Source: Candidatus Jettenia ecosi (GTDB taxonomy: Bacteria > Planctomycetota > Brocadiia > Brocadiales > Brocadiaceae). Taken from it: 56,887 nt of DNA. Shown piece by piece: positions 49,681 to 56,242 of the stretch (position 1 is its first letter; each line of letters begins with the position of its first letter). Below the pieces are notes generated by a model. That model saw nothing but the letters and a program-made list of their open reading frames with translations, ran no database searches and was not told the DNA's origin. The position numbers and the translations under genes were made by a program. The DNA lies in NCBI GenBank assembly GCA_005524015.1, contig SULG01000014.1, positions 1 through 56,887 on the forward strand, written 5' to 3'.

Positions 49681-49782
49681 CAGGGCGAACACAAGGTTCT
49701 CCCCTACCATATTATAGTGATCAACGACTGAAACCGAACAGGAAGAGAGATCATGGTTATGGTATAAGGTATCTTTCTTTCT

Positions 49783-49938
49783 CAATCCCGAAGGGATGTC
49801 ATGATTATAGCAGAAACGGAAAAAAGGTTTTCAACCCCGAAGGGGTGACATGAGAAACCTGCGTTCCGGTGTCATCCCTTCGGGATTTGATTTCATGGTA
49901 ATTGCTTATCTATAACCATGTCACCCCTTCGGGGGTAT
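49783..49938. repeat. Four-hairpin repeat unit, family C, copy 1
   Basis: Four short palindromes in about 155 bp: ATCCCGAAGGGAT, ACCCCGAAGGGGT, ATCCCTTCGGGAT, ACCCCTTCGGGGGT. The first two point one way (followed by GTCATGATTATAG or GACATG), the last two the other (preceded by the complements). Similar units lie at 55621-55780 and 56030-56242. Not coding. Confidence 0.75.
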
Positions 49939-50006
49939 TTATTCGTAGGTTTTCATGGTGTTCTGAGATACGCGGTATGTTCGGTTTCATCCATGGAGTA
50001 CTATAA

Positions 50007-52159: not shown

Positions 52160-52252
52160 TGATAAAACCCCTGTTATTGAAATACCTATAGGGGTAAGGT
52201 TTTGTATATCGTATTTTTCTATAAACATTTCACCCCTATGGGGTTATTTTTC
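52160..52252. repeat. Family C-like palindromes before kaiB
   Basis: ACCCCTGTTATTGAAATACC-TATAGGGGTAAGG and CACCCCTATGGGGTTA are half-decayed members of the C family. The rest of the gap 51970-52447 is AT-rich with no gene; a promoter for kaiB-like/kinase should lie here but I cannot choose one. Confidence 0.45.
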
Positions 52253-52512
52253 AAAAAACTAAAGTGTTACATAATTTTTATAGAGACACAAGATTTAAAA
52301 AATTTTCCATAGCACAACACTACAGATATATTGTATAATTACCAGGTATTGTACCCGCGTAGCACAAACAAGATTAGCTTCCTGCGTTTTCTGGACATCC
52401 TATAGTTTTTGAACAAACACTTGATCTTGTTATTGAAAGGAAAACACATGGCAGACCGGAATTCAGAAAAGGCCATAAAAGACCTTGAAAAAATCCTTTA
52501 GGAATCTTTGAT

Positions 52513-52842
52513 TTGAGTAACCACTTCTTCCTCAGGCTTTACGTGACAGGCTTATCAAAGAAATCATTAAAGGCCATAATGAACATAAAAAGTCTCTGTG
52601 AAAAATATCTGGAAGGACGTTACAAGCTAGAGGTTATAGACATTTACCAGCAACTTGAATTTTCAATGGATGAACACGTGATAGTAGCTCCCACACTTAT
52701 AAAAAAACTACCACTTCCTTTGAAAAAATTAATTGGAGATATGTCGGATACGGACCGGATACTCACCGCACTTGATATAAAACCGCTGAAAGAAAAAGAG
52801 TACGATAGAGAGGAAGGAAGGAAGGAAGGAAGGAAGGAATAA
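52513..52842 (+). CDS. kaiB: KaiB-like thioredoxin-fold protein
   Basis: The 109-residue frame contains a whole KaiB core: FLRLYVTGLSKKSLKAI, GRYKLEVIDIYQQLEFSM, VAPTLIKKLPLPLKKLIGD and DTDRILTALDIKPL. KaiB is the fold-switching member of the circadian KaiABC clock; homologues in bacteria without KaiC act in other signalling roles. A longer N-terminus is likely: ATG 52448 (good AAGGA site) reads MADRNSEKAIKDLEK and would join this frame if the A6 tract at 52488-52493 had seven A, giving NPLGIFDLSNHFFLRLY. As written, the core can only start at the TTG 52513 (AGGA 9 bp upstream). The C-terminal tail is encoded by an AGGA microsatellite. Directly upstream of, and in frame with, a histidine kinase. 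Confidence 0.85.
   Translation: MSNHFFLRLYVTGLSKKSLKAIMNIKSLCEKYLEGRYKLEVIDIYQQLEFSMDEHVIVAPTLIKKLPLPLKKLIGDMSDTDRILTALDIKPLKEKEYDREEGRKEGRKE
52811..52838 (+). repeat. (AGGA)7 tetranucleotide microsatellite at the kaiB-kinase junction
   Basis: Seven perfect AGGA units encode the REEGRKEGRKE tail of the KaiB-like protein and end 22 bp before the kinase ATG. As tetranucleotides they change reading frame with each unit gained or lost. With six units the KaiB frame would end at the TGA of ATGATGA, overlapping the kinase start; with eight it would end at TGA 52854. The repeat also resembles a chain of ribosome-binding sites. Confidence 0.85.
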
Positions 52843-52860
52843 AAGTAAAAGGTTGAAAGA

Positions 52861-55227
52861 ATGATGAGTAAGGAAAATAAGGCGAAACACGAACTCATAC
52901 AAGAGATAGAGGAGCTTCAAACCCGGCTCAATGAGGCAGAGGAGGCTCTTCATGCCATAAGAAACGGAGATGTAGATGCTATCGTCATTCGTGGTCATAA
53001 GGGAGAGCAAGTTTATTCTTTAACGAGTGAAGAATACCCTTATCGCGTTATTGTAGAAAGCATAAACGAAGGAGCAGTAACCCTTACCCCTGAAGGCACT
53101 ATTCTTTATGCAAATAAACGTCTCGCAGAAATACTAAAATTCCCCTTGGAAGAGATAATAAGTCGCTCATTTTATGATTTTATATCGGAAAAAGACAGAG
53201 GTTTCTTTTCCGTACTCTTAGAAAAAAGTCTCAGGAAAGGCTCAAAGGGAAGAATTACCCTGGTGAACAGTGAAGATACTCATTTGCCGGTCTACCTTTC
53301 GTTAAATTCATTCTTAATTGATGATAAATCCAGCGTAAGCATGATTATAACTGATTTAACGGAAGCGCTAGAGGCAGAAGCATTTTCTGACACAATCCTG
53401 GACCAGGCAGCAGAATCTATTATTGTTTGTAATGAACATGGCCTTATCACACGCGTAAATTCAGCAGCTCAGGCCTTATGCGATAAAAATCTCTACCTGC
53501 AACCATTCGATACTATATTTCCTCTTACATACCGGAATGGAAAAGATGACAAACAGGTAAAAACCTTTTCCATTTCTGCCACCCTGCAAGGGCAAACACT
53601 CAAAAACAAGGAGGTGGAATTTTGTGAAGACGGACAAACTCATCATTTTGTTTTAAACGCCGGACCGCTTACCAGCATTCAGAGTAAAAACCTGGGTTGT
53701 GTAATCACCCTCACCAATATAACAGCAAGTAAAAAGGCGGAAAAGGCCCTGGAGATAGACCAACAACGGTTCTTTTCCCTCCTGAACGAACTTCCTGGTT
53801 ATGTTTTTCTTCAGGGACCCGACTATTCTATCCGTTATGCAAACCGCTATTTTTGCGAGATCTTTGGGAAACCCGATGGAAATCCATGCTACAAAATAAC
53901 CCAACGAGGCAGAAAGCCATGTGAAAATTGCCCTGCCGCCCAAGCTCTTAAAACGAAAAACAGAACAACCTGGGAATGGACTTCACCGGACGGAAGATTC
54001 TATCAGGTATATAACTATCCATTTATCGATATTGACGGCTCTCCTCTTACCCTCGAGTTAGGAATTGACATAAGTGACCGCAAACGTGCTGAAGAAGCAT
54101 CGCGTGTAAGCGAAAACAAGTATCAGTTACTCTTCGAGAGCCTTCCTCAAAGGATATTTTATAAAGACAAAAATCTGATCTATGTATCCTGCAATGAGAA
54201 TTTAGCCAGCGACTTACATATCAGCCCAAATGAGATCATGGGAAAGACAGATTATGATATCTATCCCAAAGAACTTGCCGATACATACCGGGAAGCGGAT
54301 GCGAGCGTTATAGAATCAGGACAGACAGAGGATACAGAAGAGGAGTATATCAAGGATGGAAAAAACTTAATTATTCGCACGGTGAGAACTCCTATAAAGG
54401 ACGAGAACGGTGATGTACTTGGTATCCTGGGCGCATTCCTGGACATTACCGAAAAGATAACCCTGCAGAGAGAAGCAGAACGATCACGGCATCTTGCAGC
54501 ATTGGGAGAATTGGCAGCCGGCGTGGGCCATGAAATCAATAACCCTATAACCGGCATTATCAACTGCGCCCAAATACTGTTTAACAAAAGCAAAGAGGAA
54601 AGCAGGGAAAAAGATCTCGCCAGACGAGTTATCAAAGAAGGCAATCGTATAGCCAACATAGTCCATAGCCTCCTTTCCTTTACCAGAAGGGATACCCATG
54701 AGAAAAAGAGCATGGTTAGCATTCGTGAAATCCTCTACGAAACACTTATTCTGACGGAGGCATATTTACGCAAAGAGGGTATCAGGATAAAGCTGGATAT
54801 TCCGCACAATCTGCCTGCAATAACGGTACATCCACATTTGATTCAGCAAGTCTTTTTAAATGTCATCAATAATGCACGGTATGCCCTGAACCAAAGATAT
54901 CCGGAAGCAAATGATAATAAAACCCTTGAGATTTCAGGTGAAGAAGTAACGATCGATAATTGCCCTTATGTGAAGATAATGTTTTACGATCAGGGCATCG
55001 GTATACCCGCCAGGATAAAGGACAAAATAATGGAACCATTTTTCACCACAAAACCTACTGGCAAAGGAACGGGATTAGGCTTAAATGTGAGCCACAACAT
55101 TATCAGTAACTATCATGGTAAAATTACCATTGATAGTAAAGAGGGAGAATTTACCAAAGTTACGATCATACTACCTGCAAGATCTCAGTCTCACGAAAAT
55201 TGCCAAGAGACAGAAACGGAAAAGTAG
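52861..55227 (+). CDS. Multi-PAS sensor histidine kinase
   Basis: A 788-residue soluble hybrid-sensor-type kinase without membrane helices. An N-terminal coiled coil (KHELIQEIEELQTRLNEAEE) precedes four PAS-like units (about 60-180, 180-300, 300-410 and 415-535; examples NEGAVTLTPEGTILYANKRL, YDIYPKELADTYREAD). The kinase core has the H-box GVGHEINNPITGI, N-box NVINNARYALNQRY, G1 DQGIGIPARIKDKI and G2 GKGTGLGLNVSHNI. PAS3 has a PCYKITQ..PCENCP cysteine group, as in some redox-responsive PAS domains. No response regulator gene follows. It forms a pair with the KaiB-like gene 18 bp upstream, a split version of the SasA (KaiB-like domain plus kinase) idea. Confidence 0.92.
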   Translation: MMSKENKAKHELIQEIEELQTRLNEAEEALHAIRNGDVDAIVIRGHKGEQVYSLTSEEYPYRVIVESINEGAVTLTPEGTILYANKRLAEILKFPLEEIISRSFYDFISEKDRGFFSVLLEKSLRKGSKGRITLVNSEDTHLPVYLSLNSFLIDDKSSVSMIITDLTEALEAEAFSDTILDQAAESIIVCNEHGLITRVNSAAQALCDKNLYLQPFDTIFPLTYRNGKDDKQVKTFSISATLQGQTLKNKEVEFCEDGQTHHFVLNAGPLTSIQSKNLGCVITLTNITASKKAEKALEIDQQRFFSLLNELPGYVFLQGPDYSIRYANRYFCEIFGKPDGNPCYKITQRGRKPCENCPAAQALKTKNRTTWEWTSPDGRFYQVYNYPFIDIDGSPLTLELGIDISDRKRAEEASRVSENKYQLLFESLPQRIFYKDKNLIYVSCNENLASDLHISPNEIMGKTDYDIYPKELADTYREADASVIESGQTEDTEEEYIKDGKNLIIRTVRTPIKDENGDVLGILGAFLDITEKITLQREAERSRHLAALGELAAGVGHEINNPITGIINCAQILFNKSKEESREKDLARRVIKEGNRIANIVHSLLSFTRRDTHEKKSMVSIREILYETLILTEAYLRKEGIRIKLDIPHNLPAITVHPHLIQQVFLNVINNARYALNQRYPEANDNKTLEISGEEVTIDNCPYVKIMFYDQGIGIPARIKDKIMEPFFTTKPTGKGTGLGLNVSHNIISNYHGKITIDSKEGEFTKVTIILPARSQSHENCQETETEK

Positions 55228-55620: not shown

Positions 55621-55780
55621 ATTTCAAGCCCGAAGGGCTGTCATGATTATAGATAATGAATTACCGCAAAATCAATAACCCTGAAGGGGTGAAATAATTA
55701 TCAGTTTTCCATGCCACCCCTTCGGGGTTCAAATCCTTTCTTCTGCTCTTTTGCTATAATCATACCATCCCTTCGGGATT
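55621..55780. repeat. Four-hairpin repeat unit, family C, copy 2
   Basis: AGCCCGAAGGGCTGTCATGA TTATAG, AACCCTGAAGGGGTGAAATA, GCCACCCCTTCGGGGTTC and CTATAATCATACCATCCC TTCGGGAT, in forward-forward-reverse-reverse order. The outer pair and the inner pair face each other, so the whole unit is a quasi-palindrome. It is part of the 1.5-kb gene-free stretch 55228-56754. Confidence 0.75.
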
Positions 55781-55863
55781 ATGAGACAAAAACACCTTGA
55801 TACTCTGTCACGCCGTTTCTTTGGATTCTGTCTTCTGAATTCTCTATTCTGTTGACAAAGAGA

Positions 55864-56029: not shown

Positions 56030-56242
56030 TAAGCCCGAAGGGCTGGTATGATTATAGACTATGAACAACAACAAATAAACAACCCCGATGGGGTGAAATG
56101 ATGCTAAATAGAATATTACCATACCATCAAATCCCGAAGGGATGGCATATTAACACAGGTTTTCCCATATATCACCCCTTCGGGGTTGAAGGGCTTTTTC
56201 TGTTTTTTGCTATAATCATGACATCCCTACGGGATTAGGTAG
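56030..56242. repeat. Hairpin repeat unit, family C, copy 3 (five palindromes)
   Basis: AGCCCGAAGGGCTGGTATGATT, ACCCCGATGGGGTGAAATGA, ATCCCGAAGGGATGGCAT, CACCCCTTCGGGGTTGAA and GCTATAATCATGACATCCC TACGGGAT: three forward and two reverse hairpins. Mutations within stems are mostly compensated or in loops. Confidence 0.75.

Follow-up and report, generated by a model that had tools for sequence, protein, structure and literature searches.

The kaiB-kinase locus and its AGGA tract

The locus lies in the draft assembly of Candidatus Jettenia ecosi (G000; 3,864,554 bases in 223 contigs, with hydrazine synthase present), within a stretch of 56,887 nucleotides hereafter called the window. A kaiB-type gene, designated kaiB2, is followed closely by a gene for a sensor histidine kinase, and a perfect run of AGGA units occupies the 3' end of the former (Table 1). 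The first kinase ATG stands 21 bp beyond the end of the run. Two other genomes of the genus were used for comparison: G001, a single contig, and G002, 4.1 Mb in four contigs, which we take to be probably Ca. J. caeni KSU-1.

The gene identities proposed in the initial annotation hold. The kaiB2 product belongs to the KaiB family (PF07689, E 1.8e-19, 69.7 bits against a cut-off of 27), and its score in the NCBIfam equivalogs for clock KaiB is below the cut-off (69.1 versus 110). The kinase combines PAS, HisKA and HATPase_c domains; of its two possible ATG start codons, it is the second that all four alleles described below share.

The 5' end of kaiB2 is unusual. The ATG at which the gene formerly began runs into a TAG codon at 52499, and the gene is broken alike in G001: both the TAG and a 5-bp frame-shifting insertion are common to the two genomes, while in G002 the same start is in frame and intact. 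That the frameshift stems from a miscounted homopolymer, the A6 run at 52488, was considered and rejected, since G001 shares both the TAG and the frame. No ATG is found ahead of the domain in the KaiB frame of G000, and this open frame can begin only at a TTG with an AGGA nine bases upstream. Judged from the sequence, this TTG is most likely the start codon. Across 52448–52513, kaiB2 must restart at the TTG or be made by another route.

Table 1. Features of the kaiB2-kinase locus in the window (Ca. J. ecosi, G000)
Feature	Position	Strand	Description
Former kaiB2 5' end	52448..52501	+	MADRNSEKAIKDLEKIL followed by TAG; not in frame with the KaiB domain
kaiB2-type gene	52513..52842	+	Likely TTG start; SD-like AGGA at 52500-52503; TAA stop at 52840-52842; PF07689
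(AGGA)7.25 tetranucleotide tract	52811..52839	+	Encodes the RKEG-type tail of KaiB2 in whichever reading frame
AAAAGG	52847..52852	+	Weak SD-like sequence ahead of the kinase gene; retained in G000, G001 and G002, missing from G042:C94
TGA	52854..52856	+	kaiB stop when the unit number is 2 modulo 3 (e.g., 8); G001 uses the equivalent TGA as its kaiB stop
Sensor histidine kinase gene	52861..55227	+	PAS/HisKA/HATPase_c, 788 aa; ATG 52861 or ATG 52864
TGA overlapping the kinase ATG codons	52862..52864	+	kaiB stop if the units are a multiple of 3 (e.g., 6)

Elsewhere in the window, dispersed intergenic repeats were detected at 49762–49959, 55629–55803 and 56058–56237. They are 73–77% alike, partly inverted, and contain CCCGAAGGG-type palindromes (REP-like).

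Length of the tract

The initial annotation had reported an (AGGA)7 repeat at the junction, and a perfect period-4 tract of 7.25 units (29 bp) is indeed found there. Its length is far beyond chance. In 20 Markov surrogates of the window the longest period-4 tract measured 11–15 bp, and the runner-up in the window itself has 11 bp. Samples of 400 kb from each of G000 and G001 stood for the genomic background, and in these the longest other period-4 tracts were 13 bp and 12 bp, respectively.

Other repeats in the 400-kb sample of G001, namely (GAG)11.7, AGTCAGG, CACTCA and AACGTACT, were rejected as not comparable, being in-frame triplets or lying outside clear genes. The (GAG)11.7 run (L139:1168-1202) forms a poly-glutamate stretch inside a gene with a terminal CPCGSGKKYKKCC motif of the SEC-C type, and six copies of AGTCAGG are found just behind that gene.

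Effect of unit number on the reading frames

When the frame was read with altered unit numbers, the kaiB2 stop was found at TAA 52840 with seven units, at TGA 52862–52864 within ATGATGA with six, and at TGA 52854 with eight (positions given in unmodified coordinates). These are exactly the stops that had been claimed. It had also been stated correctly that both genes share a frame and are separated by two in-frame TAA codons, at 52840 and 52846. A KaiB-kinase fusion generated by slippage was rejected, as the frame shared with the kinase has the TAA codons and the other frames never enter the kinase.

The AGGA repeat is open in all frames, each of which encodes R-K-E-G and no stop. With 3 to 12 units the KaiB domain and the kinase always remained intact, and no truncation of either by unit number was found in natural alleles. 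The suggestion that unit number could switch the coupling of the two genes is partly supported: the stop moves among three frames, one of them with a stop-start overlap, but no on/off effect is expected, as all frames are open. Compared with a contingency locus, the perfect tandem repeat well beyond chance is present (29 bp versus 11–15 bp); on/off truncation is absent, both at units 3–12 and in all natural alleles.

The tail encoded by the tract lies beyond the KaiB fold and is probably disordered, according to an AlphaFold model of modest quality (mean pLDDT 63) in which residues 94–108 fall below 50. In a small aligned set, KaiB from other genera terminates a few residues past the domain and has no RKEG tail.

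Tract length in related genomes

A scan for tracts of at least five AGGA units was made in 33 genomes of the family. Each of the three genomes of the genus harbors exactly one, always at the kaiB-kinase junction. Outside the genus, a tract was detected in only 1 of 30 genomes, on contig C94 (5,674 bases) of G042, which represents a different genus and is 6% contaminated. Four assemblies thus yield four lengths, with the proviso that short-read assemblers can misjudge tracts of this kind:

(i). G000 has 29 bp (7.25 units); kaiB2 ends with TAA and the gap to the first kinase codon is 18 nt.

(ii). C94 has 43 bp (10.75 units) and a TAATG junction with an overlap of one base, comparable to the overlap of TGA 52862 with the kinase start predicted for six units in G000.

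(iii). G002 has 49 bp (12.25 units) followed by a degenerate AAAGAAGG stretch, which still codes for charged residues; the stop is TAA and the gap 12 nt.

(iv). G001 has 85 bp (21.25 units), the stop TGA and a gap of 4 nt.

All three stop frames of kaiB2 therefore occur in nature, and the tract is hypervariable across the genus. The change in unit number among relatives that had been suspected is borne out; a number fixed across them, which would have spoken against it, was not found. In G001 the DNA repeat is perfect over 21 units, which speaks for recent slippage rather than for selection on amino acids alone.

The comparison between C94 and G002 deserves separate mention. Over the full 5.7 kb the two differ by three substitutions and a net 49-bp difference in and beside the tract. 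This single near-identical allele pair depends on one 5.7-kb contig in a bin with 6% contamination. All the differences between C94 (L125) and G002 fall within about 150 bp of the repeat. On sequence grounds, C94 most likely derives from a strain of the G002 species and is probably a contaminant of the G042 bin.

No further alleles were found in 392 genomes of the phylum, IMG/VR and 80 named contigs. In G005, which belongs to another genus, a short GGGAAGGAAGGAG stands at the tract position and may possibly represent the seed of the repeat.

Spacing between kaiB2 and the kinase gene

The gaps between the kaiB2 stop and the kinase start in the four alleles (+18, +12, +4 and −1 nt) agree with a translationally coupled pair, in which stop and start lie within about 10–20 nt or overlap. 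Three of the four alleles provide the kinase with its own AAAAGG. In C94 the spacer with this motif is gone and the repeat itself would serve as the SD-like site of the kinase, with a predicted −7.3 kcal/mol versus −3.8 for AAAAGG; the scan used the general bacterial anti-SD sequence.

The gene pair is an ordinary and widespread arrangement. Of 80 loci examined across many phyla, 66 have a PAS kinase of this type directly downstream of kaiB2. The gap is at most 20 nt in 45 of these 66, a count biased towards short gaps by taking as start the codon nearest to the stop, and overlaps of −4 or −1 are found in 8 of the 66 as well as in G011. The Jettenia gaps, from −1 to +18 nt, fall inside the range of the same pair in other phyla. 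A tetranucleotide tract at the junction was found in none of the 80 loci.

Loss of the clock genes

A kaiC gene and a first kaiB stand ahead of the pair in G002, G042 and G011, and G005 has both as neighbors. These two genes, about 3.1 kb in G002, are missing from G000 and G001 (52186–52447 in the window), where the upstream TPR gene and the downstream kinase gene have been retained around the loss. With the KaiC of G002 as query, only a RecA-like match of 26 bits was found in either genome, the result being the same in the draft (G000) and in the single contig (G001). No second KaiB was found in either. As both kaiC and the first kaiB are missing from this genome, the clock-type setting proposed initially is doubtful; judging by gene content, the "clock" here is a remnant.

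Between G000 and G001, silent changes are favored in kaiB2 (dN/dS 0.26, P = 0.03) and strongly so in the kinase (0.16). The kinase is full length and open in the three genomes of the genus, with dN/dS of 0.16–0.19. Because silent changes are favored in both genes, the orphan pair still appears to be used, though not as part of a clock.

Discussion

The interpretation that we favor, and hold to be reasonably probable, is that the tract is a slippage-prone microsatellite in the probably disordered tail of KaiB2, perhaps with a mild tuning effect on the coupling of kaiB2 and the kinase. Such a tetranucleotide microsatellite would have grown out of the purine-rich kaiB2 end within the genus, changing quickly in length, probably by slipped-strand mispairing. 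Because 4 and 3 have no common factor and AGGA contains no stop in any frame, the KaiB domain stays whole at every unit number and is followed by an (RKEG)n tail, the kinase being left untouched. What varies is the length of the tail and the position of the kaiB2 stop relative to the kinase start, and the latter might modestly change kinase translation through termination-reinitiation. On/off switching would not be expected. A neutral or nearly neutral microsatellite, tolerated as all frames are open, explains the data with the fewest assumptions.

The switch of coupling claimed in the initial annotation finds no support: all AGGA frames are open and encode the same RKEG tail, the kinase is full length in the three genomes of the genus, three of four alleles keep its AAAAGG, and the distances from stop to start differ by about 20 nt only. 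Because neither gene is broken by unit number, the tract could act as a tuner at best, not as an on/off switch.

An alternative possibility is that tuning is what the tract is selected for. Slippage would shift the kaiB2 stop among three positions and thereby set kinase reinitiation, giving rise to subpopulations with different KaiB-to-kinase ratios. We regard this as unlikely but worth serious consideration. All three stop frames are natural, the TAATG overlap included, the repeat of C94 offers the kinase a stronger SD-like site than AAAAGG, and the pair is tightly packed in other phyla, with overlaps in some loci. A sole AGGA array per genome, conserved at a single place through a genus nearly free of such repeats, is also more than expected of a neutral repeat, and because of this persistence a selected rheostat stays the main rival. 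However, the kinase has its own SD-like site in three of the four alleles, and all the gaps are compatible with reinitiation, so only a small effect would be expected. That the locus behaves as a contingency locus in which both proteins stay intact, the stop is moved among three positions and slippage sets the KaiB/kinase ratio, is likewise unlikely, and a little more doubtful.

Selection might instead act on the protein, if a charged, variable-length (RKEG)n tail altered how KaiB2 binds the kinase or some other partner. The same charged tail is indeed produced by every frame, and charge is preserved in the degenerate part of G002. Nevertheless, KaiB2 proteins of other genera do without the tail, sister species differ several-fold in its length, and the DNA repeat is perfect, whereas protein selection alone would predict synonymous change. 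We therefore consider this explanation improbable.

An equally improbable explanation is that the kai operon is decaying and the repeat expands only as the end of kaiB2 is no longer constrained. The absence of KaiC and of a second KaiB from G000 and G001, together with the TAG and the 5-bp insertion that they share, would fit a relic; but G002 has kaiC, the first kaiB and an intact kaiB2 start and still carries the tract, and the bias towards silent changes in kaiB2 is against decay. Finally, an error of sequencing or assembly is very improbable and was rejected: the J2 assembly is based on 454 reads (average 411 nt, 53x; PMC6828613), a technology that miscounts homopolymers, but the tract contains AA and GG doublets only, its 29 bp are short relative to such reads at that depth, and independent assemblies, one of them a single contig, carry tracts at the same site.

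Most known examples of fast-mutating repeats come from host-associated bacteria. A repeat at one regulatory gene pair across a slow-growing anammox genus would offer a test of whether slippage can tune adjacent genes with neither of them broken. The tract might also allow strains in reactor populations to be told apart quickly. If neutral, it would provide an example of a 3' repeat that persists with all frames open. No locus of this sort was found in the titles and abstracts of papers that mention anammox together with phase variation.

Several known systems bear comparison. The locus resembles kaiC-kaiB-kaiB-histidine kinase clusters in that kaiB2 is followed by the same kind of kinase; it differs in that kaiC and the first kaiB have been lost in G000 and G001. 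In Rhodobacter, a kinase is found in an operon with kaiBC (PMC5520375).

In Haemophilus influenzae, tetranucleotide AGTC repeats turn mod on and off by frameshift (PMC3711429). The likeness lies in a perfect coding tetranucleotide repeat whose unit number varies among relatives and each unit of which shifts the frame. However, the frameshift in mod truncates the protein (PMC3711429), while the Jettenia repeat is 3'-terminal with all frames open, and neither protein is lost.

The nearest system in manner is nadA of Neisseria meningitidis, in which the length of a tetranucleotide repeat sets the spacing of promoter elements and affects transcription with a graded output (PMC2791445). In both cases repeat length sets the distance between two control elements. 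The spacing in nadA is at the promoter and acts on transcription (PMC2791445), whereas in Jettenia it would be that of a stop codon relative to a start codon.
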